Under the pieces are notes generated by a model. That model made no database searches, was not told the origin of the DNA, and was given only the letters and a program-made list of their open reading frames with translations. From Yponomeuta sedellus (lineage: Eukaryota; Arthropoda; Insecta; Lepidoptera; Yponomeutidae): a stretch of 64,000 bases of DNA. Positions 4,386-62,631 of the stretch are shown here, one piece after another. The stretch spans positions 11,695,198-11,759,197 of the forward strand of contig OW203731.1 of the NCBI GenBank assembly GCA_934045075.1. Direction: 5' to 3'. Position 1 is the first letter of the stretch. Every line of letters begins with the position of its first letter. The position numbers were made by a program, and so were the translations under genes.

Positions 4386-4420
4386 ATTTTGTACCTACAT
4401 TGATAAACCGAAAGAGGTTT

Positions 4421-4524
4421 ATAGTATTTTTATTTTTAATGCACTAACCCGTGCTAAGGATAGCCAGAGATTGCGGGTTCGAATCCCGGCATGGGTGAAA
4501 TTTTTAGCCTCTAAATAGGTTTTT
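4421..4524 (-). mobile_element. tRNA-related retroposon, 104-bp copy
   Basis: Flanked by a perfect 11-bp target duplication GAAAGAGGTTT (4410-4420 and 4525-4535). The left end carries 'aatgcactaacccgtgctaa' and the right end 'gcctctaaataggttttt', the same two ends as the copies at 8318-8588, 20931-20990 and 30041-30446. Between them only the 3-prime half of the tRNA-like sequence remains ('ggttcgaatcccggc'). Read in antisense the element ends in an A-rich tail. Confidence 0.75.
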
Positions 4525-5034
4525 GAAAGAGGTTTGCCATCTCCTGATAAACTTTAGCTAGTAAAATGTATACTACAGTATAACGATACGCTGCACGCGG
4601 TCGCTGACTCCTCGTCTAGCATATATCTACACTATCTCGTGATGACGTAATATGAACATCCTAGAGCAGACCACTCATACCGGATCACGGTAAAAAAATG
4701 TAAACACATCACTGGCCGACGTCTGACCCCGATTCACGGAGATCGACGACTCCATTTCTCTCGTAATTGTTTTGCTGTTCTACTTTTCTTTTAAAGTAAG
4801 TGAGAGATGTACTTTTTGTTTTTCAAATTTTTACGATGGTACATAAGTATTTATGGGTGTGTCAAGCGGAAGGGTTTTTGATCTTTGGAGAAGTTCATTG
4901 CACTTCGGAGTTGTTTGAGTGATTGCATCACTACGTATGGTACTTATATTTCGACGATCAAAGCATGTAACAATAACTTTGGCCCTTATGGGTGATACAT
5001 AATAACGATGTCTCGTCTAACTATCTATAATCAC

Positions 5035-5200
5035 CCCACATCAACCCACTGCAGGGCATAGGCCTCCTTTTTATTGCGCAATTCCTCACGGTCCTATGCT
5101 AACCTGATCCATCTCTGACCCGCAACCCTCACGATGTCGTCTGACCATCGTGTCTGTGGTCTGCCTACCAACCTCCTACGATGTCTCGTACCCATAGCTA
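5035..5200 (-). repeat. RTE-type LINE 3-prime fragment
   Basis: The string 'ccactgcagggcataggcct' is the reverse complement of the terminal 'AYVQQW'-type coding end of RTE elements (compare 40900-40945 and 54955-55000). The fragment is heavily decayed. Confidence 0.45.
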
Positions 5201-6659
5201 AATTCAAATCATATACAACACTTGTCGCGAAATGAAATCAACTCGTCATGAGTAAGTATCCTGTGATCTCAACCGTATATTAATCCACAATAGACGGTAG
5301 TAAAAATCACCAACAATGACAAGACGGGGAAGAAAACAGACCACTATTACCGTAATAAGTGCACTATTAAGGTATCTACGATATAGAAATGGTTCAGCGA
5401 ACTGTTGCACAAGGCTCGACCGGTCGCAGGCACATTTCAAGGTATTGACAGAAGGTTCGCTTAAGCAATAGATTAAATAAAAGGGAAACTTCTTAACGTA
5501 TAGGAGACTGGTACTTTTAAGTTTTTCATATTAAACCATCGAGTCAACAACACGAATACATAATATTTCAAACTGTAAAATTGAACTCAAAATATATAAA
5601 CATAAGATCGATGATAAATAAAGTCCAAAATACATTACACGCGATAGTTATTGAGGGAAACTATATAATGATGAGCATCGCGAATTATTGAAAAATGTGA
5701 GAAGTCGACAGTAGGTACATCCACAAATTCATCGCGAAGCCAAATATTTGGCCTGGTGATGACTTTGCGGACCAACTGTTTTGGCACTTCCAAGTAGCTA
5801 TGTTATGCAGTTTCTATTAAGTGAGCGTTTTATGGTAAGTTTGTGTTGTTGGGCATAGACCGGCGGCGTCGAGGGGAATCCCTCTTGTGCAAGCGCAGCC
5901 TCGGCGCGCAATGCACTGAAATTACCAGCTAGATCCTGGTTTACAACAACATTTGTTGTTTCGTCAACAATTTAACCGATGTTAGTAGGGTAACTCTCTA
6001 TTGCAATTATGCTTATATTTGATAGGCTTTTTTTACTTTAGACATGGCACTTTTCTTGATGACTAAATTAGAATGATGACTTATTGACTATTCTTGATTT
6101 CTTCTTGACTATGCAGCCTGCATTCACGTATTTTGAAAGCAACTATGTGAATGCAGGTTGTACTTGCTTCAAAAGTTAAATGTCATCTACTAAGTACGTT
6201 TTCCAGCAGCCACATTCAAATAGTATATATATCGCCCCAAAAGTTGCCGCCCCTTGCTGCCCCATCTCAAATTACCACTCTGTATTTAATGAAATTTTAT
6301 AGTGAAATAAAAGGAAAATGTTCTTAAGATACATTAATTTCATTACATTACAGATTGACTTCAAAAATATCTCTTAATGAAGATAAGTATAGGTACTGTT
6401 TGCAGTTTTGCAACTGTGCTTATGCACTTGATTTTTGCGGTAGCGCGTCGATGTCTTTCCTGCGCACGGAACAACGCGCGCGTAGCAATTGGGCTACGAA
6501 GTGTTCGAATGCAAATAATTATGCATTATGATTAAATGTTGTGTTTAATCTGGGTTTGTAGTTCAGAATAATTGTTTGTAGCGTCGGTTCGGTAAACCAC
6601 GTTACTTAGAATCGGGAGGTCATACTTAAATCTAATATATAAAAATCTTGTGTCACAGT
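5201..6659. other. No gene seen
   Basis: AT-rich intergenic DNA. Small frames at 5246-5440 and elsewhere show no domain; I see nothing I can name. Confidence 0.4.
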
Positions 6660-6782
6660 GTTTGTTACAATCCTCCACCAACCCGGACTTGGCCCCCGTG
6701 GTGGAGTATGGCCTAACCTTCGTGTGATGCAAGAAGAGACCCGTGCCCCAGCAGTGGGGACATACAAGGGTTGATATCGACG
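6660..6782 (+). repeat. 5S-related SINE, tail fragment
   Basis: Tail of the SINE in plus orientation: 'tacaatcctccaccaacc', 'gtggtggagtatggcctaac', then 'gggacatacaagggttgata'. It aligns with 41752-41827 plus 42135-42170 of the complete copy, and its uninterrupted 'gagacccgtgcccc' shows what the MITE at 41828 broke. Confidence 0.65.
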
Positions 6783-7439
6783 CTCGACAGTGTTTGTTAT
6801 CGAACTACTCCAAATCGGTTTCACCGGATTTTTGTGCGTATTTGGTAGGTCTGAGAATAGGACGTAGTGTAATTAAAATGGCAAAACATCGTTTGGGGTT
6901 ATCCAAAAAGAAGAAGAAAACACATTTATTACAGCAACAGCTACTCAAAACATTACCATACACACTGACAACTTAATACATTGAGACATTACAAAACAGA
7001 ATACTTAACATTACAAATAGTGGTCACGGTGTGTCTCTGCTGCTGCAAAAGGCATCTGACTCAGCATACTGCTGAGGGCATTACACCTCAGCACTGATTT
7101 TCTGTCAGCGCCTGTCCCATGAGCGTTCCACGCGCGGCACGGTTTCATCAAGTAAAATATAAAGTAAACAAAAACAATGGCAGTATTTTCTGTACTTTAG
7201 GCAAGGCATTTCTAAAAATTACTCCCAGACACTACGCCGTGTAGTGGTCACTGCGCATGTCTGAAAGATTTCAAGATTATTTAAGTACCCTATTACAGAT
7301 AATAATAATTTCCACACAACACAATCACATGTAAGGATCCAAAACTACGGGCTGATTTTGAAATCGTTAGCCATATTTTAAGAGAATGTTCTTTCCATTG
7401 TGAAATACAGTACTATTGGTAATGATATAACATAACGTA
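6783..7439. other. No gene seen
   Basis: Non-coding; the 77-codon frame at 6743-6976 overlaps SINE sequence and has no domain. Confidence 0.4.
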
Positions 7440-7570
7440 GCCTCAAGCCTATATGCCAGAGGGGTAGGCAGAGACCAAGGACTGCCACTTGCCACGATCC
7501 TGACAGATCACCTTCGCTTCCGCAACATTCATATTATGTCGTGGGTTGCTGGCAACTGGTTCCGGGTACT
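7440..7570 (-). repeat. RTE LINE 3-prime end, short copy
   Basis: Strongly similar to 19200-19320: shares 'gaggggtaggcagagacca', 'ctgccacttgccacgatcct' and 'gacagatcaccttcgctt'. In antisense this encodes the end of an RTE-type polyprotein. Confidence 0.6.
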
Positions 7571-8306
7571 AACCGGGAATATTTGTAAATATTCTTGATT
7601 TCCGACATTTTCCGACAGGTTCCCACCACTTTGAATTTGGATTTACAGTAGCATAGTTTTGAAAAACATTTTCTAATAATAAATGTATAAGAGTCTGTCC
7701 TGCGACATGCGTAGGTACACAATCCGCTATTTGACACGTATCAAATTTGACGCGATAAATGAATATTTCCTATAGTATTTAACGTAAGAAACCGAAATAT
7801 ATTGATTTTGCTAAGTAAGTATGCAGGATGGCTGCAATATTTGCAAAGTAAAAAAAAATTTTCCTCGTTTAATTCGTAACGGCGAAAACGCTATCCGCCA
7901 TCTTGAAAGCATCTAAAGTATTTAAACAAACATCTTTCAGCCAGAGCCAGTGGACATTGATTTGATTATTATAGGACTTACATCAAAGTGATCTACAGTT
8001 AAATACACCCGAGTTTCAATTGATAAAGAGTCGGGGTCTCTTTTGGCAAGTTTGAGCCAAGTTTTTCAAATGTTAATTTCACTGGGTACACGAATCCACA
8101 ACTTCTCGGGAGTTTTTATTCACGTGTTTTTTCATTCTCGAACAATGCAATAATGATATTTTAGATGTAAATTCGATGAAATCATGGTTGCGTTGTTTTT
8201 ATTTCACTATGCTCAGAAAACTTTGTTTACAAATTTTTGGACTTTAAACCATAGACTAAAATGGCCGACCGCGTTTTTGGCTGTTTAGGAAAATAAAGTT
8301 TTAAAA
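7571..8306. other. No gene seen
   Basis: Non-coding AT-rich sequence without recognised repeats. Confidence 0.4.
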
Positions 8307-8317
8307 TATATTTTTAT

Positions 8318-8588
8318 TTAAAAACCTATTTAGAGGCTAAAAATTTCACCCATGCCGGGATTCGAACCCGCAACCTCTGGCTATCCGTGCCAGCGCTCTA
8401 CCAATTGAGCCAATGGGCGACTCACGGCATCAGTGAAATTTCGAACCTCTTTACACTATTCTCTGTATTACGTATAGCCAGAGGTTGCGGGTTCGAATCC
8501 CGGCATGGGTGAAATTTTTAGCCTCTAAATAGGTTTTTAAATTTGTTCCTTAGCACGGGTTAGTGCATTAAAAATAAAAATAGTATAA
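8318..8588 (+). mobile_element. tRNA-related retroposon, 271-bp copy
   Basis: Flanked by the 11-bp duplication TATATTTTTAT (8307-8317 and 8589-8599). It starts 'ttaaaaacctatttagaggc', then carries a whole tRNA-like sequence in antisense (about 8350-8420), a spacer, then the 3-prime half of the same tRNA-like sequence in sense, then 'ccttagcacgggttagtgca' and an A-rich tail. The two tRNA-like parts form an inverted repeat. The tRNA-like unit has a D-arm, an anticodon arm and a T-loop GTTCGAATC, but C at position 33 and a mismatched T-stem, so it is not a working tRNA. Confidence 0.75.
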
Positions 8589-8941
8589 TATATTTTTATG
8601 TTGCTTTTAGGTCCTCAAAAAATATACTAAAATATTTTTTGGTCTAATGGAAGAGTTATTTACCTTTTAAGACTTACTTAAAAAGAGAGTCAAATAGCGG
8701 ATTAAAAGAACAAATGAGTTGGCCAGCGCCGACCATAAGACGCTCGAGCCATAGGTATAACTTTTCGATTTTCATAACCTTTCGTCCTGATGTTGTTTAC
8801 TACGCTCATGTAAAAAAATGACGTTTAATTTTTGCCAATAGGTATTCGCCCCATATATTTCTAAATCATGGTTAGAATGCCCCCTTAAAATATATCAATC
8901 GAATTTGAATTAAGTCACCCTGTAGGATACCCTATGCCAAT

Positions 8942-9085
8942 CTATAATATAAAAATGAATCGCCGAATGTGTTGGTAAGCGCAAATCTCGAAAGCAGCTG
9001 AACCGATTTCGGTAATTCCTTTGTTAAAATATTCCGTGAATTACGAGGATGGTTCTTACGGAGAGAAAAAAAATGAATCGACTGT
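8942..9085 (+). repeat. Possible Helitron-type fragment
   Basis: 'tctataatataaaaatgaat' followed by 'ctgaaccgatttcggtaatt' resembles a class of insect repeats often attributed to non-autonomous Helitrons. No terminal hairpin was identified. Confidence 0.3.
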
Positions 9086-9574
9086 TAGGCGGTACGAAGT
9101 TCGCCTGTCCTGGTCCCAATCTAGGATTCCCTGTGCTAGCCAAGAAATGACATCACAAACATGGAAATAAACCCAGAGTGAAGATGAGGCGTGGTTTCTT
9201 GCATTGATACTTTATACCTATGCAAGACAACTGAGTATTTGATAGGTAATTAACCCTTATTAGGCTGCATCAGCCCAGATTATAGCGAAAGTAGGTAAAA
9301 GCTCGCTATGGGCAGATGTTTAGCAACTCAAGTAAGTTGTTAATCTGGAGCGTTATGTCATGCGTGGGCTTCTTGCTTTGGCACACAACACAATACGCAG
9401 TGGGATGCACTTTAGCATTCATCGCACAAAGGCTGCTGCTTCTGCAAACTGCTCGTGAACTGTGTTCACGGCGTTGGACTAAAATATGGGTCATTGCTTC
9501 ATAAGGAAGTCCTAACTTTCCTATTAAAAACAACCCATTTTTATTCGATTGATTGAAGATGTTTCTTCTTTTTC
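9086..9574. other. No gene recognised
   Basis: An antisense frame of about 106 codons (9306-9626) has a CVVC...H pattern but overlaps repeat R2 at one end and has no recognised domain. Nothing else seen. Confidence 0.3.
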
Positions 9575-9895
9575 TCTTCTTTTTCTTTAGTCCTCTGCTG
9601 CATAGCCCTCTCCTAATGAGCGCCACCTTTTTATAAACTGAAATCTAAAGGTCGAGCTGTTGTCCAACCGCACGCTAATAATCTATACCTTTAATTTACA
9701 TTTTTTGGCTATATACGTTACACTGCAGGGCAAGGATAAATTACACATAATATAACGTGTTACTTTTTTATACACTTTTGGTTAGATTTTTTAATAAAAC
9801 CTTGTATTAAATTTTTACTTATCTCGGCTCCTTATAGATCATCAAAAGCTTTTTTCTGATATAATAGAGAGAAGATATAGAAACATGCAATTGTT

Positions 9896-10022
9896 TATTC
9901 TTCTTCTTCAAGCTATTTTAGTCCACTGCTGGACATAGCCCTCCCCTAACTCCACCAAACTGGGATCCCCAACCCGGATTCCCAGCGTGGGGATCATGTG
10001 CATTACCCCCCAATGATGGCAC
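9896..10022 (+). repeat. Dispersed repeat R2 copy
   Basis: Shares 'gtccactgctggacatagcc', 'ctccccta' and 'gatccccaacccg' with 205-375 and 42951-43262, in a different internal order that suggests a deletion. A partial copy lies at 9575-9632. Confidence 0.5.
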
Positions 10023-10600
10023 AATTGTTTATTTTACAAAAGTAATTAATTCCAACTTAGTTTGTTGTCAAGGTCGAATATTTGACCAATATAATTTTTT
10101 CTAGGTTAACTAATATGGAAATAAAACCCCAAAACAACAAGATCCGCCATGCGGCCTCGCGGACACCCCTCTTACCTAACGCGATACTTGGAACCGACTC
10201 ATTCACGCGTTAAGCAAAGGGTTGATCAATGACGGTGACGTCAAGTCCTCTACCAAGATACCACAAAGTCGTCGATATGATGCAAACTGTGCAAAGTCAG
10301 CATTTTCGGCACTCGATGCAGCGATCTGTGCTTAATAATATTTAGAACACATTACTTAAGCAAAACCAAATACTCTTAAAACTTCAGAAATTAATGAGAA
10401 GCATGATATATCATGTATGGTAGTTACCAACATTTTTTTGTCTGTACGTTCCATTTACTTGTATTCTGATCTTGTAGTCACTTTGCAGCGCTTTATAGCT
10501 AACTACCCAGCGGACGTCTTCGATTCGACAGATTCTTAGCGCCATGGAGTGCCGTGGTAGCGGGTGCGGACGCCGCTTCTTACAAAATCGCACCACGAGC
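10023..10600. other. No gene seen; upstream of promoter
   Basis: Non-coding sequence leading into the predicted promoter. An antisense 101-codon frame (10411-10716) runs across the promoter and has no domain. Confidence 0.4.
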
Positions 10601-10619
10601 ATCTTTTTACTGGTAGACG

Positions 10620-10660
10620 TATAAAGCGGCGCGGTGGTGGCAGCGACAGTCATTCGGACA
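10620..10660 (+). promoter_or_regulatory. TATA box plus initiator for protease homolog gene
   Basis: TATAAA at 10620-10625 in GC-rich context, followed about 30 bp downstream by an arthropod-like initiator AGTCATT with the likely start near 10652. A clean donor GTAAGT follows at 10740. The spacing and the matching acceptor at 12149-12150 make this a plausible start of the 12154-16114 gene; this is inference from the sequence only. Confidence 0.5.
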
Positions 10661-10739
10661 CAAGCAGTGTGCCGCAGTGCAACACATATAACATATTTTG
10701 TGATATAACAATACAAGTTACAGGAATACCTAGACCGAA
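10652..10739 (+). other. Predicted non-coding first exon
   Basis: Runs from the predicted initiator to the donor GTAAGT at 10740. It has no long open frame. It would splice over 10740-12150 to the acceptor 'ttctttcacag', three bases before the start codon at 12154. Confidence 0.4.
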
Positions 10740-11939
10740 GTAAGTGTTATTTTTCAAATTGTGATATTAAGCTGAAAACATTAAATCATCAGATTATTTT
10801 AAATTTCATTTAATTGGTCCAATAAGTGTTTTAAAAAGTCAAATCAATAATCAGTGAAAATTTTATTACACTCTTATTAATAAGCAAACAGAAGTTTACG
10901 TTACATTCAAAACTTTCCGTCAACTTTAACGACAGTTTAATGTTGAGTTAGATTTCATTTGCATACAACTATTGTTTCAAAACATCAATTCCTTTTCTTT
11001 AAAAACTAAAGACCAATTTAGCTCGACAAAACAAGAGCGATCTGAGCGGTTGATGCCCTAAGCTTTCACTTTCCACCGGGTGAAGCCTCGCAACGGCAGG
11101 ATCAACCTATGGAACAGAGTCTAGTATACGATATATACAATAATCTAGCAGTGCGTGAAACAGCATTGCGTACGTAGTCCAACACCACTACTGACCATAA
11201 ATTCGTTATACCAATACTCGAACTATCAAACGCATAGTTATAGTCAGGCAATGCTGTAATTGTACTTATGAAAGGTGTTAATTGAACCCCAGTAAACCGA
11301 CCAATTGTTTCCAACCAAACATGCTAGTGGTGTTCAAGGCTTTCTAAGTGAATCTCACTAACTGTCAACGCATAAAACCGTAAGTAATTTTCTCAGAATT
11401 TCTCTTCCACATTCAAAGCATTTTCGCTTTTATCTCGCGCATTTATCCGACGGAAGGAGAACTCGCACGTTCCATTGTTCGGTTAGCTCCCACTTGAGTG
11501 CACGTGACTTTAATTAGACGCTAAGTATATGTATAGTGTTGTAACGTGTTGCATAAAAGTTATAAACCAGATGTGGCCGGTGAGTTCGGGAGTTGCATAA
11601 GTTACGGGTTAGCTTGGTGTCATGACATGACGCATTGTCCGTGCGTCGACTGACAACGAGCTTCGTGGGCCACTTTTAGAATGGCAATGACACCAATAAC
11701 ACTTTTCACAATAACAATAACAATGGATGACACCAATGGACGACTGCAATATATTCATATGCAATTAGGTACAGAAATTTGCCGGACTTAGGCTTGACGA
11801 ATACGTAACAGACTTAACGTGCCTACGTAATATTATGATGACTAGATAAACCTATATTTTGCTAATAAACCGTGACACGTCTATGTACTTTAGCTTCCGT
11901 ATTTGTAGTAACTACTCGTAACCCTATACTTAGATGCAA

Positions 11940-12110
11940 ATGTGAGAGTGCTTTTGCGGGCCCACGCCGCAGCGCCGCCGCCGCCGCACCGCACGCTGAC
12001 ATTATGGCCGCTTACATAACGAGACGACGCTGATTCCATCCGCAAAAGTAAAAGTGTTCCTCGGTTCGGTCGGGTTTCGAAACAATAACACGCTCAGCTG
12101 AAGAAGGATC
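11940..12110 (+). other. GC-rich (GCC)n-containing stretch in 5-prime intron
   Basis: A local GC-rich island with 'gccgccgccgccgcac' in otherwise AT-rich DNA, just upstream of the first coding exon. It could be an alternative promoter or an enhancer; nothing decides this. Confidence 0.3.
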
Positions 12111-12153
12111 ACACTACACGAAAATAACAATCCCCTTTGTTCTTTCACAGATC

Positions 12154-16864: not shown

Positions 16865-18887
16865 ATGGCAGGTACGGCACGAAAGGGGAAGAAGGTTGTG
16901 TCTGAAGCACCAACATTCACCCTCCCGGACAGCCTGCCATGTTCCGAGGTAGACTTCCCGATCTTGCTCAAAAAGAAGGTCTACGCTAATTGGAAAACCA
17001 TACTGAATGAAAGGGAACATCACCTGAAAGACATCGAAGAATTCAAAATGCGAGGGAAAGAGATCATTCCCAAGGCTCCATTTCTAAGTATTAATAGTCG
17101 AAAATACCTGGGCGACTCGAAGGAACCCCTTTGTCTCTTTATTGGCTGTTTAGTCCAATGGCCAAACTACCAGATTCAGTAGTTAAGTGATGCACGAAAC
17201 TGGAGTACTAGCCTGACTTTTGGTCAGGGATTGGACGAAATAGTAGGCTCTGTCGTCCAGTTGTAGGTAATGCATCGCTTAACTACAGCAACTGCGACGG
17301 AAAAGTAGTCTGTTGACCGAACTAGCATGCTCAGTAGTCCGGTGGTGAATCATCACCGAACTAGTGAGACGATAATCTCACCACACCGACCATGGGACGA
17401 AACAACCGAACTATTGAGTCCCGTGTTGCTTTTCACCTCCTTCGGTCTCTATAGTGACGTGTGAAACGCAGAAGTATGTACATTTCGGGACGTTCCTTCG
17501 GGGTGCCTATATACTTTCGGCGAGTTTTATATTAACAAGCTAGTTGAGACAAATTGTAGTCAATAGAACCAACAAATTATTTAAAGTTCGGATAGGGATG
17601 CTAATAACAAGCATTTTACATGATGGATGGACTTATCTTGAGCTTGACTCACGTCCGTATCTTGAGGGCAGGCGGAGACCAGTGTTGCTACAATCCTGGC
17701 AAAACCTCTTTGGCTAAATGATATTCAATCATTGGGTCATATCGAAATCTATCGAAATGCTCTTACATAGTTATATATTTAACGGGTCTAATAGCAATGA
17801 TTTATTACGTGAAACGTAATTACCTTAGTAATAATTCACGTCGGGAATTAAGGTAATTACGTTAATCCTAACAAATAAACGCGATTAGAATATAACTGTT
17901 TAATAGGTATATATCCCACATCGAAGTCCGATCATTTAAGGTATAAACATAGTAAATGTTAGTTATTTATATTCTCTAAAACACTCCATAAACGGCAAAT
18001 ACTCGTAAATAGTCTGTGATAGAGAGTCACGGGACGGTCACCCATCTTGCACCTGACCGCGCGTTTTGTTGCTTAACTCAAGTGATTGATTCCAATTACT
18101 CGGTTCGGTTAGGCCACGAGCGCTTCACACTCTTTTGCACAACCGAAGCATGGATCGAGATTTGGAAGAAATGGCCCTTTTTTCTACAGTCTTCTCCACC
18201 TAAGTAGTTTAAACATATACAGCCTTACTAATAAACTTGGTGTAAGTATTGTATAACTATGCAGTGTTTTGTCTCTTTTCTTCCAACTGAAAATTACATT
18301 CAAATGACGTCAACAAAACACTGTGTAACGATACCAGGCTTATACGGAGTTTATTAGTAAGAGCCATAAAGTTTATCCTCTAAATAGGTTTATAAAAAGA
18401 TGAACTATTGACAGAAACTGAGACCGACTACATCCAAAACGAGGTATTCAAATTGCTCATACCTGCGCTGGAGGAAACTCTGACCAAGGCCAAAATGTGG
18501 GAGGCTCTACACATCCAGAAGTGTTTCTTTAATGGAATCGATCACATCGCTCAAGTTAGTACCCAGTCCCTGCAAGTTACGTAGGCGGATAGTTAATTTG
18601 AATTAGATATGTCAATCGCTATTTGTAAAGGGTGAGGTACCTAAAAATGGTAAGGAAACCTGAGTAGCTGATCTGTTAACATACCCTAGCGCTTGTAGTT
18701 GCCAATCCGCGATGGGTAGTCTCATACTCTCTCTCTTTTCTCTCTCCCTGAGAATAGGCCTGTGTCCTGTATTAAGGCGTATACAGAGTGATAAAGAACT
18801 GATGCCCGAACCGTAAGCATTCTGGATATTTCAAACTAGGTACTTCTTCATTTTGCTAGGAAATCAATAAATTATTTGGATTAGTAA

Positions 18888-18942
<55 letters not shown>

Positions 18943-21900
18943 CTTACATACATACACATACATACATACATACATACATACATACATACATACATACATA
19001 CATACATACATACATACATACATACATACATACATACATACATACATACATACATACATACATACATACATACATACATACATACATACATACATACATA
19101 CATACATACATACATACATACATACATACATACATACATACATACATACATACATACATACATACATACATACATACATACATACATACATACATAACCT
19201 CACGCCTATATCTCAGAGGGGTAGGCAGAGACCAGGGACTGCCACTTGCCACGATCCTGACAGATCACCTTCGCTTCATCAACGTTCATAAGTCGTTGCA
19301 TGCACGCACGCCGGTTCCGGGTACTTTTTATCTTTGCTTTTGCTAATACATCCCCTATTTGGTCGATGTATGTCCGCCTGGGACGTCTCTTACCAGCCCT
19401 TCCACTCACATTCACAATATATATTTGTTTCGTCAATCTTTCTTCCATCATCCTCTCCACATGTCCAAACCAACGCAACATTCCTTTGTAGTCACTACAC
19501 CCTCTGTCAGTCCACAACGTTCTCTAATCAGACTATTGCGTATCCTGTCATTCAAAGTAACACTATACATACTTCTCAAGGACCTCATTTCTACTCCATT
19601 CATTCTACTTTCCTGCTTCTTTTGCCACACCCAAGTCTCGCTACCATACTTAAGTGTTGGGACCAGCACACCATTATGAATAGCCAATCTAGCTCTTTTG
19701 GAGATGTTTCGGCTGCACACAATGGAGTGCAAGGCACCGTTTACACAATTTCCCGCTTTTACTCTTCTTTCTATATCACCTTCACACTTTCTATCCCTCG
19801 TAAACAGGCTCCCCAAATAGACAAATTCTTTTACCTACTTGTTCCACTCTTTCGCCTCTAATCGTTATTAAAATATTTGCTAATATTTAATTTTAAACAC
19901 CCGGATTCTTGTACACGAAAAATCTGTTAATTTATCTACTGTTAAGAGCTGTCAATCGCTTTTTTTTCCTTTGGACAACATATTTTGTTAGTAACATATC
20001 AATAAATATTTTGTCGAAAGGGAAACAGGAGTTTAGTGCCTATAACTGTGTCAAAAAGTACAAAAACATTATTATCTATCTACTTACTAGACTGAGTAGT
20101 AGGATAATACAATTCACGCCTTTTGTGGCGCTAAAATAATTAACTGTTAAGTGTACGAGAAACGGGGTCCTAGAAACATAATGTGAATCGTAAGTGGGCT
20201 CACCACCCCTTCTAGATCCATAATGAATATGGTCAATGGATCTATTGAGATTGAGGCTTCAAATAGTAGCAGAAGTAGTACCTACCAAATAGTACCTACC
20301 AGAAGTACCGACCTTCAAATAGTACCTACCAGAAGTAGATTGATAAAGTGAAATTACAGATATTTCTTAACATGAGAGACTGCGGTCACAAGTTCTGCAT
20401 AAAATACAAATATTTTTTTCCAGCTTTTATGGAACAACAATCCACGATATCCAATTAGAAAGTCTGATAATTTGCATATTTTCAATATGCCATGGACGCA
20501 AGCATATTTAAAAGAAAAGTATGTACTTATCTTTTAAATTAAATTATATAGTTCTAAGATATTTTTAAGTAAAACTAATATTTCTACCACAGTCCTCGTC
20601 CATACTATCCCAAGTCATGGCTTTGGCCAGAAGAATATGCCGCGGTTATAATACAAAAGACCGTTAGGAGATACTTTGTGCAGAGAGAAGACGAAGTACA
20701 GGAAATGCGTGAATTCTGGAAGGTAAGATTATTACTAGTTTCTTGTTCCTCTTTTTCACGTAATTATCTCAATCATAGTCATGTTACCTGTGAACTGCGT
20801 GCGTTCTTTCTTATTCATCTCTAATTTTGATGCCTTCATTAGCTTATTGTGTCCTAATTTTTCTACGTATTCATCATCATTATTATCATAATCAGCCAGT
20901 GTCAGTCCACTGTTGGACATAGGCCCATGTTTATACTATTTTTATTTTTAATGCACTAACCCGTGCTAAGGAAATAAATAGGTTTTTAAAATAGGCCCAT
21001 GTATTAAAACCTTGTAATAGATAATCTAGTCAAACTAGGAAACGAACTTTTGTAGTTTGGCTCGGGTCTTGGATGTTTTATCTATGTATTTATTGTATTA
21101 AATGTATCGTCGAGTTAGCACCTAAAACACAAGTCATTTAGTTGTACTTAGTATAGGGCTAACAAGACTGTGTAATATGTCCAAGAATATTTCGATTCAA
21201 TCCAAAATAAATGTGTTTCATACTAAGCTTGTTGGAAGTCAATGTCCTGTGTAATATGTCCAAGAATATTTCGATTTCGATTCAATCAAAAATAAATGTG
21301 TTTCATACTAAGCTTGTTGGAAGTCAATACCCAATACCAGGCTTTTACGAGGGCTGCTACTTATGTATGCGGAATAGAAAAAATAAACAATGTATATGGC
21401 TAAATATGCTTTTGTTTTGTTTTTCAAAGTATTCTCCACTATGATCGATGCACTTTTGCATTCGATGAAACCAATTTGTAAAACACTTTTTCCACTCTGA
21501 TTGAGGTATCTCCAAAACGTGCTGTTTGAACGCATCCAGGGCGTCTTCACGGGTCGAAAATCGTTGACCACGTAATTTATTCTTTACATTTGGGAATAAA
21601 TAGAAATCATTGGGTGCCAAATCAGGGCTGTACGGTGGATGACCCATCAATTCTATTTTTTGACCATCCAAAAATGTACTTGTTTCCTGAGATGTATGAC
21701 AGCTGGCATTGTGATGGTGAAGTATGATTCTGCGTCGCTGGTTGTTTTGGCGTATTTCTTCAAATACTTCCGGCAAATAAATGGTCGTGTACCACTCCGA
21801 ATTAACCGTTCTGCGATTCTCCAGTGGTATTGTAGCCGCATGGCCATTAATACCAAAAAAGCAGGCCACCAATTGCTTTACAGTGCTTTTTGCACGAGCC

Positions 21901-24900
21901 ACTTTCATAGGGTTCGGCTCATTTTGAAACACCCAAACTGTTGATTGTTGTTTAGTTTCGGGATCGTACGCGTAGATCCAGGATTCGTCACCTGTGTAGA
22001 TAATTATAAACATATTTTGAGTCGCCTCCGTTGAATTTTTTCAAGGCTTTCTTGCACCATTCGACGCGAGCATCTTTTTGATCCTGAGTTAAGTTGTGCG
22101 GGATCCAACGCGAACAAAGGTTAAGGGGCATTTTGTTCGGACCTGTGACCCACCAGCGATCACTAACGAATTTACTCAGAGTATGCTAAAGACCATAAAT
22201 ACTACCCACTGAGATCTGTCACATTCCTCAAAACTATGAGAAAAAAATTTTTGCAAAATAATAACTTATATAAAAAAAATCGAATCGAATATATTTCAGC
22301 AGTGCCGATTTTATAGAGTACATTTTTAGGCAAAAACAGTTAAAGCAGCATTTTTACCACAGCTGTCTGACACCAAATAATAGCTTGATCTAGCTATAAA
22401 AATGCTAAGTTGGCGAGTCAGCGCACAGTGAAACCGGTATTGGCCCAATACCGGTTTCACTGTGCGCTGACTCGCCAACTTAGCATTTTTATAGCTAGAT
22501 CAAGCCTTATTGTGTGAAAGAGAGGGCTGCTAACCTCTGTACTGTAGTGTGTATTGCGCCTTACGAGCGCCAGAAAGCCTAAAACAGTTAGTAGTAATGA
22601 TTGAAAATATATAATTGGGAAAAATATACATTTTGTGTTGAACAACATAACTTTTTTTCTTCATACATTTGGGTTAAAATAAAAACATTCCGTGAAATGG
22701 TAACCCTAACCCTTCAAAACGAACCACATTTGAATAATGGTCGTGAACTTTGATGTACCGGGTCAAAAATGCCCGGTTACCTTTGCTCGTCATACATAAT
22801 AAAATATGCCCAGAATAGCCTCTATCTCGCGATGCGTAACATGGCGGTCTTGCATTATTAGTTTTCGCACAGCTTCAATATTTTATGCCACACCTGGCAA
22901 GAAAGTGGCTTTTTCCGCACGCTGCGCGTACGGAAAAAGCCGCTTTCTGGCCAAGTGTAGACATAAAAAGATGTACACAACACGGGAGGTAATAAAGAAA
23001 GCTCTCGATCGCATATTTACGTCCCTCGCTTGCAGCTCGGGCCGCAAACTTCTGCGATCTCGGCCTTTCTTTGTATTACCACCCTAGTTGTGTAATGTAC
23101 TATTATAACATATTTGCTCGTAAAGTGGTTGTAATTACACCAATTTTAATATCGTAATGTATCTCATTACGTACTTGTGCGATAATGTAATGTAAAAGGC
23201 ACGTGTTTTTTTTTTAATAAAGTTTTAAGATACTCCGTCTAAAAATGAACGATACTTTTAAAAATCTTAGCAAAGAGGTTTTATGTCAAGAAAGTGGTCA
23301 ATATTTTATGAATAAAATTAACTTTGGGAAATAAAATATAACAAATAAACATTTAATTCTTTAATTTAATTAATTTTGACAATAAATTACAACCATTTAT
23401 CTGTAACAAAAACACAAAAATATTAATTTACTTTATTAGTAATACTGGCGGTTTTTGTACCTTTGCCTAAAAAAAAAGTTGATGCGCGCGCATCGCTTAT
23501 TTGTGGACAAGTAAAAATAAATCCGCGCGCTTTTTCTTTTCGATGTATTGTTTTTATTTGAAAATGTCGTCAAGTAGTGATGATAACAAAGTCAGTTTTA
23601 TTAATTTCCTCGTAAATATGTTATAAAACGTCGTATGACATACGTGCGCTTTGAAAATTACAGCCTCTGCTTCCTTCCTCGCCGATGGCTCGGGCTAGTA
23701 ATATCGCCTCGGCTGTAATTTTCAACTTACCGCACTTATATCATAATGTACTATTGTGGCACAACCAACGATTTCGGGCGACCTTCTTTAACTTCGTCCG
23801 TGAGCTTACTGCGCCCGCGATTAAACTCACTAAACCAGTGATAGGGACACAGTCGTTTTTGATGGAGCTTCACCACCAAAAGTCGAAGTTAAATTGATCT
23901 ACGCACTGTTGTTGCGTTAAACCACGTCGAAAATCGTAATAAATCATAGCACGAATATTTTCACGAGTGAGTTCCATTTTTTCAGCGATATGACATTTTA
24001 AACCCAACAAAAACAAAACACTAACGTATATAAGAGAAAAATATTAGCGGCCAGTACTTAAAAAAAAAACGAATTTGACCATGGAGGTCAGACATTGCGT
24101 TTAAAATTATTGGAATCCCAGATTCCGCATACATAAGTAGCAGCCTATGTATAATGGCACGAATTCAACAATTTACTTACGTACTTACATGATCGTATTC
24201 TAACATACAATGGACAGCCGATAATTTTTTACAGGTTATAAGAATAATAATATTTATTTGCTAGCATTCACAGTTGCATAGTCGCCGGTAAAGTAACCGG
24301 GTATAGTTCAAAGTATAAAGCTTGCGGAATGATAAATGGTACCTATTCCTTTTCTAAAAAGAGCGACACGTGCAAGACAAAAATTTTTATATGTCTTTTA
24401 GTTCAGCCTTTATCGGTTTCTTTTCAAGCGTATCCATCATGATAAACATACCGTGATGGAGGCCGTGGGTTCGGTCTCACCAGGGGCCGCCGCACATTTG
24501 TACAAATGGCCTCAATCTGAGTGTATTTCCATGTTTGATCTCCTTGCCTGGTTACCAAAGCACAGGGTATCCAGCTTGGAACCAGGACAAGTGATTGTGT
24601 TGTGTGGTTTTTTTTATGTAGCCTATACAGGATGTCTCATTCAAATCGGTCAGTATGGGAAAGTCTGAAACTATAAGATATACGAAGATCTGTTCTGAGG
24701 AACCATGTCATCGATTTTAATAACAAGAAAAACTGCATTCGTACATTTTAAAAAACATCTGTACTCTGTTCGGGAATCGAACCCGGTTGTTTTGAAAAAA
24801 AAAAACATAAAAAACGTAAAAGTAGTAGTAGTAGTAGTTACTCACTGACAGGTTGCCTCGCACCTCCATTCCTTGTCCACGGTCTGTGTTCGCGTGCGCG

Positions 24901-25746
24901 TACTAATGGCACGCACTTTACGGTCCATATTAGAGTGAACGGGATGTTTTCTCGCAGGTCACCACTTTACGTATTGAACTTCTCTCGTTTGTATTTTATT
25001 CGCTTACCCGTAAGTCTATCAACATAATATTTGTATATCACAGACTTATTTGTTTCACTGTTTATCCGATTATATTATGTATTTATTACCTTCACTCTTC
25101 ACAAGCACTGCACAGTATAATATTTAAGTAGGTATTGTATTCTATTGTATATGTCACACCACGGGCAGCTTATTAATTTATTTTTTCTCACGTACATGGC
25201 TAACCGCAGCTTAGACCCGACTGAAAATCAGCGTTGCAACTGACAAGTCTGTTGCTACATTATGCTGAGTCGGGCCCATTTTGGGGGCTCAATACTTAAA
25301 ACCTTTGTATTAAATTATGTTGTTTTCGTGTTGTAAAGTTGATTTATTTTTTAACTGTGTCCTTTTTTTTTTGCTTTCTGTGTAATTTTTTTTTTGTAAG
25401 GTTTGTGTGTTTTTTTGTTTTGTTTTGAGTATTTTGTCGTCAAATAAACACATTTTCTTTCTTCTTTCTTTCTATAATTATTATTATCCCAATTTAATTT
25501 TTAAAAGACTTAACGCTAACCGCATTTGAATACATATTTTTAGACTTTGCGTTATATCAATAACACGTTGTAGTTTTTTTTTTACAGTCTATTTTTACAA
25601 ATTTCCAGAAATTACAGAAAGAACGTGACAACCCTGACATCGAAGCCAACTATTTCTTAGCAAAGGAATTCGCATCAGAGACTCAACATCCGCCAACGAA
25701 GCCAATTTCTAAGACAGTAGTTACAAAAAAACAAAAAAATAAGTAG
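16865..25746 (+). CDS. IQCK: IQ motif-containing protein K homolog
   Basis: Five exons read by splice signals and phase: 16865-17087, 18415-18554, 20424-20518, 20593-20722 and 25609-25746 (stop TAG), about 241 residues. Exon 2 encodes LLIPALEETLTKAK, matching the vertebrate IQCK region that precedes a basic helix. Exon 3 has a WNNNPRYP-type block, matching the NQNP block of IQCK. Exon 4 has NPRPYYPKSW followed by an IQ motif (AAVIIQKTVRRYFVQRE), which would bind calmodulin-like proteins. The Lys-rich tail ends at KKQKNK. Vertebrate IQCK is about 287 residues and poorly characterised. The exon 1 donor (GTATTA at 17088) is weak; GTCGAA at 17097 fits the same phase, and a missing exon between 1 and 2 is possible. 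The introns hold an RTE fragment, a microsatellite and a mariner. Confidence 0.72.
17175..17290. repeat. Imperfect hairpin, intron 1 of IQCK
   Basis: 'gtagttaagtgatgca' near 17180 pairs with 'tgcatcgcttaactac' near 17275; imperfect pairing continues inward. Downstream to 17420 the motif 'ccgaact' or 'agtccg' recurs several times. It is probably the end of an unrecognised mobile element. Confidence 0.5.
17815..17862. repeat. Short hairpin
   Basis: 'cgtaattacctta' and 'taaggtaattacg' are inverted copies separated by about 20 bp. Confidence 0.55.
18015..18140 (-). repeat. 5S-related SINE, head fragment
   Basis: Antisense copy of the head at 41510-41610: shares 'acctgaccgcgcgttttgtt' and 'gcttaactcaagtgattgat' in reverse complement. 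In antisense the blocks GGCGCGGTCAGGT and GATGGGTGA recall the internal promoter half of 5S rRNA. Confidence 0.55.
18887..19195. repeat. (CATA)n microsatellite with (CA)n block
   Basis: About 60 near-perfect CATA units from 18950 to 19195, with a (CA)n run at about 18903-18938 and a short CATA block before it. It abuts the 3-prime end of the antisense RTE fragment starting at 19196. Long open frames such as MYVCMYVC... are products of the repeat. Confidence 0.95.
19196..19868 (-). pseudogene. RTE-type LINE, 5-prime truncated
   Basis: Antisense translation gives the C-terminal part of an RTE polyprotein: SETWVWQKK, MLRWFGHVERM, then RPRRTYIDQIGD and a final DRGKWQSLVSAYP. It is split by at least one frameshift near 19450-19517. 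The 3-prime end runs directly into the microsatellite, which in antisense is a TATG-type tail. Confidence 0.8.
20931..20990 (-). mobile_element. tRNA-related retroposon, 60-bp minimal copy
   Basis: A perfect 12-bp duplication ATAGGCCCATGT (20919-20930 and 20991-21002) encloses only the two family ends joined: 'aatgcactaacccgtgctaa' and 'aaataggttttta'. The tRNA-like interior is absent. Confidence 0.75.
21170..21330. repeat. Two tandem copies of an ~80-bp unit
   Basis: The unit starting 'gtgtaatatgtccaagaata' and ending 'gcttgttggaagtcaat' occurs twice head to tail with few differences, next to the mariner end at 21352. Confidence 0.85.
21357..22140 (-). pseudogene. mariner transposase, C-terminal part
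   Basis: Encodes the D,D34D catalytic region on the minus strand. The first Asp is present in TGDESW and the third in SPDLAPNDF. The second Asp, expected in the HHDNAS-type motif, reads His (LHHHNASCH). The frame is broken near 22010 between the helix-turn-helix part and the catalytic part. The family moves by cut and paste at TA sites. This copy cannot be active. Confidence 0.85.
22383..22505. repeat. Perfect palindrome, 61-bp arms, 1-bp centre
   Basis: 22383-22443 and 22445-22505 are exact reverse complements around a single C at 22444. The arms begin 'gcttgatctagctata'. It lies inside the sequence separating the two mariner halves. Confidence 0.95.
22888..23727. repeat. Row of three GC-rich stem-loops
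   Basis: Stem 1 (about 22890-22960): 'agtggctttttccgcac' against 'tacggaaaaagccgct'. Stem 2 (about 22976-23096): 'ggaggtaataaagaaag' against 'ctttctttgtattacc'. Stem 3 (23652-23725): 'tgaaaattacagcc' against 'ggctgtaattttc'. The loops are rich in 'gctcggg' or 'cctcggc'. No gene. Confidence 0.65.
24146..25255. other. Intron 4 of IQCK, no gene
   Basis: Non-coding. A tRNA T-arm-like string 'ggaatcgaacccgg' near 24775 is an isolated SINE scrap. Confidence 0.4.
25256..25478 (+). repeat. LINE-type 3-prime tail with (CTTT)n
   Basis: T- and G-rich 3-prime UTR-like sequence ending 'aaataaacacattttctttc' and a CTTT-rich tail, like 56280-56490. No coding part is attached. Confidence 0.45.
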
Positions 25747-26082
25747 TCATCATACATACAATTCAAGGGTTAACACGAGGCCCACAAAAGAACTTTAATA
25801 CTTTTATTAATTTTTAATGCAATCAGCGTCTTACAAATGTTCATAAGTGAGATCGCACTATAGGTAAAATAGCATACCTAAAGCGAAATTTTTGCATGAA
25901 GCGACTGTTTAGTAGCACATCGCTCACTGTTACTGTCTACCGCACTTCGAAATGCGTGGAATGCCACTAATTTAAATAGTCATGAAGAAAAACTGTTAAC
26001 TATTTTATAATTAATCATTACTTTTAGTAATAAGGCCGCCAACTGTTCTGTACTATGTTACTATTTAAGTCCCTACATACAA

Positions 26083-26172
26083 TAGTCCCGTGGTGGAGTA
26101 TGGCCAAACATTCCTACGATGCAGGAAGAGACCAGAGCCCCAGCTTTGGGGACATACAAGGGTTGATATCGA
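26083..26172 (+). repeat. 5S-related SINE, tail fragment
   Basis: 'cccgtggtggagtatggcc', 'acgatgcaggaagagacc' and 'ggggacatacaagggttga' match the SINE tail at 6660-6782. Confidence 0.65.
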
Positions 26173-28049
26173 TACAATATAGAATGTTCTATTTCTCTAC
26201 CTATAATTAAAGTCGTCATAATTGTGAATCGTACGACGATATGCAGCAGTATATAGCGCTACCGATGAAATGAGAATTGAAATAAAAGTAACCGTGTTAT
26301 AGTCGTGCAAAGAATTTTGGGTAAAACGTGCTTGACATGGTGCTATAATAGCGAGTGTAAAATTTCCATTATGTCGGAACATGGTTTTATTTTACTCAAT
26401 TCGATTAATTTTACTAAAACACGGACTTATTTATAAAAGCACTATTGCTTAAAACACTCGAAAAACGCCGAAAGTCTGTGGTGGAGATTTTACAAAGAAA
26501 AAAGGTAAGCAAAGATTAAATAATCTGCCTGAAAAGAATGCTTTAGAGGAGTCGTGTTCTTATAAATAAGATAGATATTGCAAAAAAATATCACGTGTTG
26601 CAAATATTATTCCTCACGGTACCTATATTGCTTATATAATATATTATTCCGTAGGCTTTCCGAACATGTGAAATTTTTTCGAGATGTCTAAAGAGCGACT
26701 TGCGCCAACTGACTGAATAAGTAAATAGATAATTAAGTATCCTTTGATAAATGAATAAGCAGCCGATTGACCGGGTGGTCAGTCATACAATATACCTACA
26801 GAGAGCTCTGAGAATTTCATGGTGAAAGAAGTTTTTGGACTTACTGGAGATACTAGACGATAATAGAGATAATAGACGAGTAGTGCTGTCCGGTATGTAT
26901 GAAAACAAGTCGGCCTAGATGGTGTTGGAGAATAGTACCACCCTATGGGTATTGCAAAGGTAAGTCTGTGTTAAAAATAAAAAAAACAATGTAAACTAAT
27001 ACTAAAATTTCTTTTTATTCTTTTAGAATACTAAAAACAAACAATGTAACAATTCAAAATTATGCTTTTCAAAATCTACACTAGATAAACTATCCCTACG
27101 CACTATATTTGCTCTTCGACTTCGAAGTTGCAATGATAATCATTAGAACAGAGCTAACCCCAGTTTATCATACATTAACAGTTGTTTGTTGGTACACAAT
27201 CATACAAATGAATAAAATCCAATATTTTTTTAATTAATACATATTAAATTTCGAACATACGGACAAAGCGAAATAAATTTCCACCTTACCAGTTTCGTTA
27301 TTCGGTATTTCATACGTAGGGCTAAATGATTTTCGTTTTTTTTTTTACTTCAGCATTATAATAAAATTTTTGGTAACATGGCAACTAGCCGATGTCGACT
27401 ATTTCTGCCAGGATCACGTCCAGCATTATAATATATGTAGCTGAAAAAAATTTACATAACTGATGCTTTCGATTTCATTGACATAGACCCGAATTTTTTA
27501 CACCTTAATATCAGCTTCGTTGCTTTATCCATTCCTGACAAAAAGGGTCTTGAATACTTGTTAAACAGACAAACCACAAAGAAGTACTGAATCGAGGTAC
27601 TGAATAACAAGCGATAACTGTCAACTATTTGCTTACGGATTGTTAACGTAATAGAAACTATAGTGATCATTCAATAATGATTTTTCATACTTTAGCCATA
27701 ACGAAAAGGCTGTCCAGTGTCCTGGAGTCCTCCTATGGGACTAGATGATAACTGTTACTACATGACACTTTTCATACAATGATCGACCAAAGCCATAGAA
27801 AATGTATGAAACTAGATGCCTTGTGGTTACGGTTATCTGATGAGAAACCGTCCATTTACTAACGAAATTAACGATAGTGGTCTGTGAATTAAAAACAAAA
27901 TACTTTGCTTGTGATCTATGAATTACAAATCATTTATTGAACTTAACTGATACATTGATGATGATCAAGTTATGGTAGAATAAAGAAGCTTATGTACATC
28001 CATTATCCCGACTATGGTAGTGCCAAAGACACTTTTTTTATAAATTTAC

Positions 28050-28240
28050 TTGAGGTTCCAGTGGCCTGGCCACATGTGCCGAAGAATCACGGTTCCCGAG
28101 TGGAGACCAAAAACTGGCTTGAGCAGCGTAGGAAGACCAGCTCGCTAGACTGATGCTGGAAAGCAGATTGCTGACAACGGCTGGCTGCGAATGGCCGAGG
28201 ACAGAAATAACTGGCAGAGGCCTTACGTCCAGCATTTTAC
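28050..28240 (+). repeat. RTE-type LINE 3-prime fragment
   Basis: Conceptual translation includes QWPGHM, PEWRPKTG, GRPARWTD and AEDRNNW. These match the conserved RTE C-terminus also seen at 40690-40950 and 54795-55030. Confidence 0.6.
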
Positions 28241-28349
28241 GATTACAGGATGATAACAGTATATTATATATTTTGTCTTGGCAGTCATGTAAGAAAGCCC
28301 ACTATTGCAATTGTCGTTGGCGAAGGACCTCAGCAAAGTTGCTACTCAG

Positions 28350-31300
28350 TTATTTCAAAGGCACACCTTCATAGAGTGAGGGGCTGGCGGGCGTGCCGAG
28401 GCCCATAGTGAACTGCACAGTCGGGGTCTCTCCCGGCTTTGCGATGCGCTTCACGCGGTTGGGACTGAAGTTGTAGACCAGTGGCATAGTGTAGTCTTTC
28501 ACTGCCTGGAAAATACAATACGAGGCTTCAATATCACGTGAAATTAAACTAAATTAATTTGTCTCTTAAAACCCTGTTACAGTTGTGGATACAATATTTA
28601 TTATATAAAAAAAAGATTCCTCTACCAACCACTCCTTAGAGGCCATTTAAATTATCTGTGGTTCTCTTTACCACAGACTATTTAAACTGTCTCTGACGAG
28701 TGTCGTAAGGATCTTGCTTTTATAAGAGTAACAGCCGGTTTCCCGTACATATTTTTTGCTAAATGTTACGATAACAGACTGTTAATCTCCTGTTAAACGT
28801 ACTTTGAGTTGCTAGAAGATTCAACTGACATAATGTTAACAGTCTGTCAAGGCAAGTGCTAATCTCCAATTAATCACAGATTAGAGCCATTTTGGATTTC
28901 TAGAACGCATATTCTCATGTCAACAGATTGTTGACATGCCATTGACATCTGATTTTTAATTGTAGAATATCGAGCAATTAGTAGCGTGTTCATATCGAGA
29001 AATAGCATTTATTTCCCATTTCGTGCCATAAAAAGAATTGAATTGGATTATTTTCTATTTCATACGTGTTTCAAAGGGTGTTTAAAAGCACGGAGTAAGT
29101 ATAAAATACTACACACTATTATATGTACTTCAAAGTTTACAAAAAATTTAAATGAGCAGGTAAGTAGGTACTTGTACACAACTTTATTATTAATTGTACC
29201 TTTCAGATAGAAAATGTCAGATTTTTCGGATTTGTCCGATTTATCTAGTGATGAGGAGACGACGAGAAATCGCAATTGAACTTTTATTTTCAATTACAGA
29301 CTTGTACCTACAACAAAACATACAGCGTTCCTTACACATTATATTATTTAACAATTACGCCATAAAATCCCGCACATTAGCATAGTAAAGTATAGCTTGG
29401 TAGATACTTGTTCACCAATGATAATAGTTCTGTTTTCTCTTTCTCAGTATAATTTCTTCGATACATTTCTGCGAATATTATGGTGATCGTAAACGGGCTA
29501 GTTTTTTGACAATTTCTTGCTGCAATAGTATAGCCGCCAGGTTGCCGATCAGTGCAACAATTGCTGCAATATTGCTGTGTAGCCCGGAGATATTGCCAAG
29601 ATATTGCATTATAGTCGCAAGAATTTCATGTCTAGCCGGCTATATTGCAAATCATTTATCCCGCTTTGATTCACTGCAATATTGCCGTATATCGTCTTTG
29701 CTCTGCTGTATAGGTGCATCTCTTTCCCTCGCTAGCCTCCCCCCGCCTCGTCCTGTAGCTACCGCTGCTGTCTTCTCGCACGCGCACCTAACCTATTCAA
29801 TTCACCACGTGTTCTGCGATTAGTGAAGTTGTTTTGTATCCGTCCGTTGTTGTTTATTCTGTTCGTCATGGCCGAGTGGTTAAACGAAAAGATTTTGAAC
29901 TTTATTAATGAAATCCATGTACGTCCTGAATTATGGGATGTAGAAGCTAGTGTGTATAAAGATCGCAACCTTAAGAAGGATGCTTGGGCCGTCATTAGAT
30001 AAGATAAGATAATTGTTTATTTAAAAAGAAATCACATCTTTACACTATTTTTATTTTTAATGCACTAACCCGTGCTAAGGAACAAATTTAAAAACCTATT
30101 TAGAGGCTAAAAATTTCACCCATGCCGGGATTCGAACCCGCAACCTCTGGCTATCCGTACCAGCGCTCTACCAATTGAGCCAATGGGCGACTCACGACAT
30201 CAGTGAAATTTCGAACCTCTTTTCAATATTCTCTGTATTACGTAGGTACAGGCAGCGACATCTGACTTAAGCAAATTGCATTACTTACAGCCCCGACTAC
30301 CTACTTTGCAGTTAGAGAGGTTCGAAATTTCACTGATGTCGTGAGTCGCCCATTGGCTCAATTGGTAGAGCGCTGGTACGGATAGCCAGAGGTTGCGGGT
30401 TCGAATCCCGGCATGGGTGAAATTTTTAGCCTCTAAATAGGTTTTTAAATCACATCTTGTTGTACAGTATCTTAGACAATTATGTTTACAACGTAATCCT
30501 TATAAAAATCAACAAGACATATTTATTTGCAGATATATTACAGAAATTAACCAATGGTCTTCACACTAGATTAATAATCTGTGTGGTGAGGACCGGGGTC
30601 AAGCGAATTAACATTTTTGATTAGAGGGCAAGTTAAGAGTTTTTTTTTTAAGCGAGAAATAAGGATTTATGCTTAAAGCTAAATATTATTACTTTTAATT
30701 ATTTTGAGTACAGCTCGTGTTTGTGTTGGGTTGTGTTGTGTTGTGTGTGTGTGTGTGTGTGTGTGTGGGTGTATGAGGGTGTGTGTGTGTGTGTGAGGGT
30801 GTGTGTGTGTGTGTATGGGCGTGTTTTAGATTTAGGTTGTAGAAGATTATTTTATTATGCATAAGATAGTTTCAGTTGCTTCGTAGCTTAAGCCGTTAAG
30901 GTAGTTAAATATATTTTGATTTACTTCATGAGGAGTGCAGTTTTTAAGTTGGCAGGTTAGAAATAATTTGTTTAATAGAAAAGGTCCTAAAAATGCTTCA
31001 AATCGTTGAGCAAAAGTAGTCCTCATACTAGAGACGGGAACTTAAGGGTTTCGTTTAAAAATAATGGATTGATAATTGGAACAGTTGATAAGACGAAGAT
31101 ATTGAGAAAGGACAGTTTTAACAATAAACAGTTGTCTAATTGACAGAACCTTACAGTCTATACAGATTTACGGTAGGATATCTAAATGGTTTTTTAAATG
31201 CTACCTTTAAGATAGATCTTTGTGCTCTCTCCAAAGACAGCAAATGGGTCCTTGCAGAACCACCCCAGCAAGAGATGCAGTAAGTGAAGACTGACTGACA

Positions 31301-62400: not shown

Positions 62401-62406
62401 GTTTTT

Positions 62407-62631
62407 ATCTTAAAGTGAACATGAGAAATCTTAACAACTGTGACAACCATTTTTCAAACTTACAGTCTAGAACATATGATCAATAGATTATAACTTTAAT
62501 GGATTTCCATTAAACCGGCTGTTTTTGGCGGAAAGTGTAAAAGTCCTTGGTTGTTGATTCTAGTTTCTAGACTGTATGTTTAAAAAATAGTTGTCACAGT
62601 TGTTAAGATTTTTCATGTTCACTTTTAAAAT
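62407..62631. mobile_element. MITE or foldback with ~66-bp arms
   Basis: 62407-62472 and 62565-62631 are inverted copies with a few changes ('cttaacaactgtgacaac' against 'gttgtcacagttgttaag'), separated by about 92 bp. No coding capacity. Confidence 0.75.

Follow-up and report, generated by a model that had tools for sequence, protein, structure and literature searches.

Fixed ends and variable inverted interiors in an abundant tRNA-like retroposon family of Yponomeuta sedellus, and a possible route of insertion from both target strands

How can a family of short retroposons keep the same two ends and intact target site duplications (TSDs) in copies whose interiors have hardly anything in common in length or layout? 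This question is raised by a stretch of 64,000 nucleotides of contig OW203731.1 of the moth Yponomeuta sedellus, called the window in the following, which holds copies of such a family. A preliminary description had listed four copies in the window that share two ends, one of them A-rich, and all four could be confirmed at their positions, with the same ends and with exact TSDs of their own. Read with the A-rich end as the 3' end, the copies start with AAAAACCTATTTAGAGGC and finish with TTAGCACGGGTTAGTGCATTAAAAATAAAAATAGTRT, and the stretch directly upstream of the tail recurs in reverse complement at their 5' end, so that a copy has an antisense 5' part and a sense 3' part. Each of the two common ends has six matches in the window at no more than three mismatches, compared with none in 100 shuffles. 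With the geometry of the TSD search unchanged, an exact repeat of at least 11 nt was found at 101 of 20,000 random places.

The copies are built from a unit of 309 nt, the period of which was taken from tandem copies at locus L009, and positions within copies refer to this unit. Copy 1 (4421..4524, minus strand, 104 bp) runs antisense from 260 to 188 and then continues with the sense tail from 269; its TSD, GAAAGAGGTTT, is an exact repeat of 11 bp at 4410-4420 and 4525-4535. In copy 2 (8318..8588, plus strand, 271 bp), antisense 262 to 98 is followed by sense 191 to 308, with arms of 73 nt that are 99% complementary. Its TSD, AATATATTTTTAT, is exact over 13 bp, and the duplication length of 11-12 bp given earlier for all four copies thus holds for copies 1, 3 and 4 but not for copy 2. 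Copy 3 (20931..20990, minus strand, 60 bp) indeed consists of the two ends joined, namely about 16 nt of the antisense end fused to the sense tail, and has an exact TSD of 12 bp, ATAGGCCCATGT. Copy 4 (30041..30446, minus strand, 406 bp), with an exact 12-bp TSD, AAATCACATCTT, is antisense from 260 to 125 and then sense from 38 to 309. Its left arm (30086..30220) and right arm (30316..30450), both given on the plus strand, form a perfect inverted repeat of 135 nt each, 100% complementary, around a spacer of 95 nt, and interiors do range from almost nothing to a palindrome, as had been claimed. An empty paralogue of the copy 2 site at 8318 is found at locus L026 (664-800, 88.5% identity, uninterrupted), the only spanning match for the five window insertions tested for empty sites.

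The unit opens with a head, followed by about 70 nt that make up the "loop" of copy 4; a tRNA-like part at about 163-231 and then the tail complete it. ARAGORN and Rfam call the tRNA-like region in copies 2 and 4, where it lies within the arms, and in L009, and by our reading of the sequence it appears to carry A and B boxes. Its description as internal and inverted can be upheld in the first respect, as it does not stand at the 5' end of the unit, where tRNA-derived short interspersed elements (SINEs) have it, but not in the second: it is sense in the RNA unit, and the inverted copy arises from insertion. In being short, dispersed, TSD-flanked and of high copy number, the family resembles tRNA-derived SINEs. 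The 20-nt core of the tail has 28,831 + 29,232 = 58,063 exact matches across the genome (657.5 Mb, 57 contigs), compared with none for the reversed control, and copy 4 has at least 139 matches, with 40 of 1919 candidates scored. Exact pieces of the family of 18-36 nt had no match in collections of viral contigs and of genome contigs, and the sole match in phage records was a stretch of tRNA-Trp. Two T5 runs at unit positions 237-241 and 256-260, behind the tRNA-like part, should stop RNA polymerase III (Pol III) short of the tail.

To what extent the ends are fixed across the genome depends on how the copies were sampled. Loci L001-L040 are the best matches to copy 4 and thus biased towards palindromes, which does not apply to the window and to loci L041-L080. 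From loci mostly chosen for likeness to copy 4, 32 insertions were parsed. The antisense part starts at 255-268 in these, with 27 of the 32 at 259-263, and 31 of 32 finish near 309 in the tail; seven have a sense part below 60 nt, i.e. only the tail on the sense side. A separate count of TSD-bounded clusters in the loci and the window, the loci again mostly picked by copy 4 likeness, gave 31 of 43 with antisense start and tail end within the set tolerance. Four further clusters (L014:7022, L015:4705, L016:4711 and L028:7764) deviate, by inspection, only where the TSD overlaps the end, and two sit inside arrays and are not insertions.

A less biased sample was taken from contig C1, where the first 40 stretches that surround a tail site were used, drawn from the first 49 tail places listed there. 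A TSD was readable in 20 of the 40, and all 20 insertions start with the antisense end and finish with the tail. This count rests on a scan that did not require the expected end, whereas a later count of cut sites chose the left TSD copy beside it; half of the kept duplications (10/20) have one mismatch, and L048 was accepted by eye. Stretches were dropped when the repeat was the 309-nt unit itself (six: L050, L055, L065, L073, L077, L078), when it had no unit match nearby (three: L057, L062, L070), or when the duplication was not found (eleven: L041, L043, L044, L045, L056, L058, L060, L061, L066, L076, L079). The kept insertions measure 47, 81, 124, 150, 172, 173, 178, 194, 200, 201, 213, 225, 236, 294, 345, 459, 470, 566, 967 and 1007 bp, and since they begin at 47 bp, copies that are "ends only" recur. 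One full-length interior with breakpoints in common was looked for and is not what was found, the lengths in this sample spanning 47-1007 bp.

The junctions between the antisense and the sense part show when this variety arises. All 32 parsed insertions have distinct pairs of junction coordinates, and because of this we think that the palindrome mostly forms in the course of insertion, and is neither inherited nor lost later. This supports the view, already expressed in the preliminary description, that the ends of this retroposon family are fixed and that most of its variety originates on insertion, and it speaks against repeated loss of the hairpin after insertion, which had been offered there as one explanation, as do the 20 of 20 C1 insertions that keep both ends. 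A palindromic SINE could in principle be inherited whole, with the short copies as later hairpin deletions. Palindromes are generally unstable, and L029 and L039 have an identical junction in different flanks, which may indicate that a junction is occasionally inherited or used again. Against this, the junction coordinates differ in 32 of 32 cases, both ends and the TSD are kept in short and long copies alike, and in many short copies the antisense and sense parts stop at unrelated places. We consider this explanation extremely improbable: later hairpin deletion is ruled out by the differing junctions, and a single inherited palindromic master is mostly ruled out, with the one common junction of L029 and L039 left. 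The other repeated junctions in a wider table of 60 rows over all loci have simple origins. L013 appears twice with the same TSD and junction and is a duplicated segment, as is the pair L005:2742 and L035 (96.6% identity over 1150 bp); L003 and L040 are one locus, and the junction of L022 occurs twice in one array. At the junctions themselves the two parts overlap by as much as 13 nt or are separated by short inserts, and in a few cases by longer fillers. At L028 (7764-8315) and in an older window copy, copy 6 (45930-47378), fillers of about 200 nt and about 75 nt, respectively, lie between the antisense and sense parts and are perhaps captured RNA.

Within insertions the unit is present singly or in tandem. 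L009 holds 2.5 antisense and 3.1 sense units, L010 holds 4.5 antisense and 1.9 sense units, and L040 has 6.4 and 5.9 units in its two arms, together 3.8 kb with the TSD ATCTTGAGGAAA. Such multi-unit palindromes, together with the one internal antisense start, do not support the other explanation in the preliminary description, template jumping within a folded RNA from one side of its stem to the other, and they are why two cDNAs from the two target strands are preferred here over a jump across the stem. Alternatively, a cDNA or an antisense RNA might fold back and copy itself into a head-to-head palindrome. The head-to-head layout and the near-identical arms would follow, near-exact mirror junctions do exist in a few insertions (L020 170/170, L014 186/187), and such self-priming is favoured for rotifer Penelope elements in the excerpt of PMC3846280. 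The second strand should then reach 309, yet it stops at about 263. The majority of junctions are strongly asymmetric, and in arrays the arms have unequal numbers of units, as in L010. Self-priming thus seems quite unlikely to be the source of these copies.

The explanation that we prefer, with a probability of roughly 0.6, is that a tRNA SINE is inserted by priming from both target strands at two fixed sites of its RNA, using Penelope-type machinery. The RNA would consist of one 309-nt unit, sometimes of several, with two starts of reverse transcription 46-50 nt apart, one at about 260-263 (GGUUUUUAAA) and the other at about 309, the end of the A-rich tail; a small stem-loop (GCAC/GTGC) lies between the two proposed sites. 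An endonuclease would cut both target strands about 12 bp apart and leave two 3' ends, one of which would prime a cDNA at about 309 and the other at about 263. The two cDNAs would extend over unequal distances before being joined into a head-to-head insert whose outer ends are fixed, and fill-in would create the target duplication. If both cDNAs stopped early, a stub like the 60-bp copy 3 would result, and if both ran through a multi-unit RNA, a palindromic array; a sense side that is only a tail would be expected where the second cDNA begins at an upstream position of the same RNA. This model is favoured because it accounts at once for outer ends that are fixed, a tail on one side only, stubs, palindromes and arrays. 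For the 5' end of the RNA, a position of about 33-40 was considered, at which cDNA ends recur (8 of 64 ends; p = 0.09 by simulation); the later loci that add to this number were selected for likeness to copy 4.

The machinery would most likely come from a Penelope-like element. Two start sites one tail apart (255-268 and about 309) and inverted and tandem copies with the tail on only one inverted repeat, save for L025:3595 and L057, are both features expected of Penelope elements. The TSDs are mostly 11-14 bp, and in the 32 parsed insertions the first three bases behind the cut tend towards G-T-T on either strand, with G in 15 of 32 on the top (p = 4e-4) and 17 of 32 on the bottom strand (p = 2e-5), which may reflect a single endonuclease that cuts both. 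From the anatomy of the copies, insertion in the manner of Penelope elements appears well supported, and a Penelope-like element as the putative partner that moves the family seems likely. The same twin priming could also be driven by a conventional long interspersed element (LINE), on an RNA whose second priming site is fixed and exceptionally strong. L1 is known to undergo twin priming, microhomology is present at both start sites, the A-rich tail follows a stem-loop, and several open reading frames (ORFs) in the window look LINE-like by our own reading. L1 inversions are a minority and start at scattered sites, whereas all 20 readable C1 insertions share one antisense start, and the like cut preference on both strands, the tandem arrays and the one-sided tail suit Penelope better. 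Tail-only copies in a small sample, the 27 sequences examined, revealed no LINE and no autonomous partner with this tail. A LINE partner is thus the most serious competitor, and still an unlikely one.

Several observations weigh against priming from both strands by Penelope-type machinery. The insertion L025:3595 is an inverted copy that lacks the tail and has a weak duplication of 9 nt, 6 of the 43 TSD-bounded clusters are sense-only, and among the dropped C1 loci L061 and L070 look sense-only and L057 is possibly two-tailed. The cut motif is weaker in the C1 sample, where either strand has G in 7 of 20 (p = 0.08), giving 22/52 and 24/52 for the two sets combined. Starts free of homology to the cut DNA, as expected for Penelope, are not what was seen: microhomology of at least 1 nt between the target ends and the RNA beyond the start occurs in 25 of 32 and 23 of 32 insertions, where permutation means are 14.1 and 17.8 and the definition of the TSD inflates the first count. 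The arms of one insertion differ at 30 of 3353 positions (0.9%) compared with 2.0% between insertions, a modest gap that hints at best at the same or sister RNAs. A regular expression for the GIY-YIG motif found none in the 27 sequences examined. Penelope elements often carry a hammerhead; here Rfam at E<=5 on 1.5 kb gave the tRNA only, and a regular expression for the hammerhead core gave nothing.

Comparisons with known systems are confined to excerpts of the cited papers. The purified Poseidon protein of the lizard Anolis cuts and extends both target strands in vitro, and this Penelope-like protein starts at two adjacent internal RNA sites, the interval between which is the genomic "tail", without homology to the target (PMC11167929). 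Penelope copies of the rotifer Adineta vaga form head-to-head inverted and tandem repeats, have a TSD and carry a tail of 31 bp on one of the inverted repeats, and that study of 2013 favours self-priming on an antisense template (PMC3846280). The 2024 work leaves the later insertion steps to be validated (PMC11167929). The moth family thus resembles the elements of both animals in its head-to-head inverted and tandem copies, the tail on one inverted repeat only, the two start sites one tail apart and the short target duplications, and probably in the cutting and extension of both strands, observed in vitro there and inferred here. In contrast to them it is non-coding, with a tRNA-like core in place of the ORF, no hammerhead was found, microhomology is present at both start sites, the start interval is 46-50 nt instead of 30-40, and the family is far more abundant. 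With other tRNA SINEs of Lepidoptera (PMC8010984, PMC3272025) it has in common that it is short, non-coding and dispersed, with a tRNA-like Pol III-type promoter and TSDs. The tRNA part of those, as far as the excerpts go, is at the 5' end and copies have a single orientation, whereas the moth family has it in the interior of the unit, and almost all of its readable insertions are inverted. Penelope-type elements that are short and nonautonomous, known from heliconiine butterflies and abundant in Lepidoptera, can be likened to the family on the basis of a brief mention, which describes neither structure nor tRNA part nor mechanism (PMC6685494). Metazoan retrozymes are also nonautonomous, with tandem units of about 300 bp in genomes that contain Penelope-like elements, and are defined by a type I hammerhead (PMC7229834); as Rfam and the core search found no hammerhead in the unit, identity with a retrozyme was rejected. 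A limited literature search found no tRNA SINE with such a structure, and no SINE independent of a LINE save the mention of nonautonomous Penelope elements in the excerpt of PMC6685494.

The remaining family members in the window are older or fragmentary. Copy 6 (45930..47378, minus strand) has its antisense arm at 47234-47378, its tail at 45930-45970 and the TSD TGCTATATTTTT; about 1.2 kb of foreign material in its interior, including a reverse-transcriptase-like ORF and a second repeat, is probably a later LINE insertion. The "tRNA-Thr" called by ARAGORN at 47280-47353 is the arm of this copy and not a tRNA gene. Copy 5 (47890..47965, plus strand) is a short form with both ends present, for which a TSD was looked for and none found. 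A possible fragment of a fixed end at 18371..18396 (plus strand, 92% over 25 nt), for which no partner end was found in the window, is adjoined by a hairpin at 18224-18361 (49-nt arms, 78%) that resembles a miniature inverted-repeat transposable element. Apart from the family, the window contains a perfect inverted repeat at 22383-22505 (61-nt arms, 1-nt spacer), unrelated to the tRNA retroposons, and a further inverted repeat at 62392-62645 (92-nt arms, 83% complementary, 70 nt apart). Pairs of repeats that are 95-97% alike (29064-29480/42173-42600, 28726-29074/41164-41509 and 37880-38217/42611-42948) suggest another recent repeat family. ORFs at 31151-34910, 21357-22040, 35859-36716 and 58051-60024 resemble LINE proteins and transposases, and one further ORF a serine protease, judged by reading only.

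The insertion route of Penelope elements, and the cause of their inverted and tandem copies, is an open question, which becomes a counting problem with a family that is short and present in tens of thousands of copies. Tentatively, with a little less than even confidence, we propose that the SINE parasitises a Penelope-like element, that its many copies record how each Penelope start site serves one target strand, and that inverted, tailed and tandem Penelope copies may be the normal two-ended product of target priming and not of self-priming. If true, this SINE would be independent of any LINE. Palindromes of this sort also seed hairpins throughout the genome.

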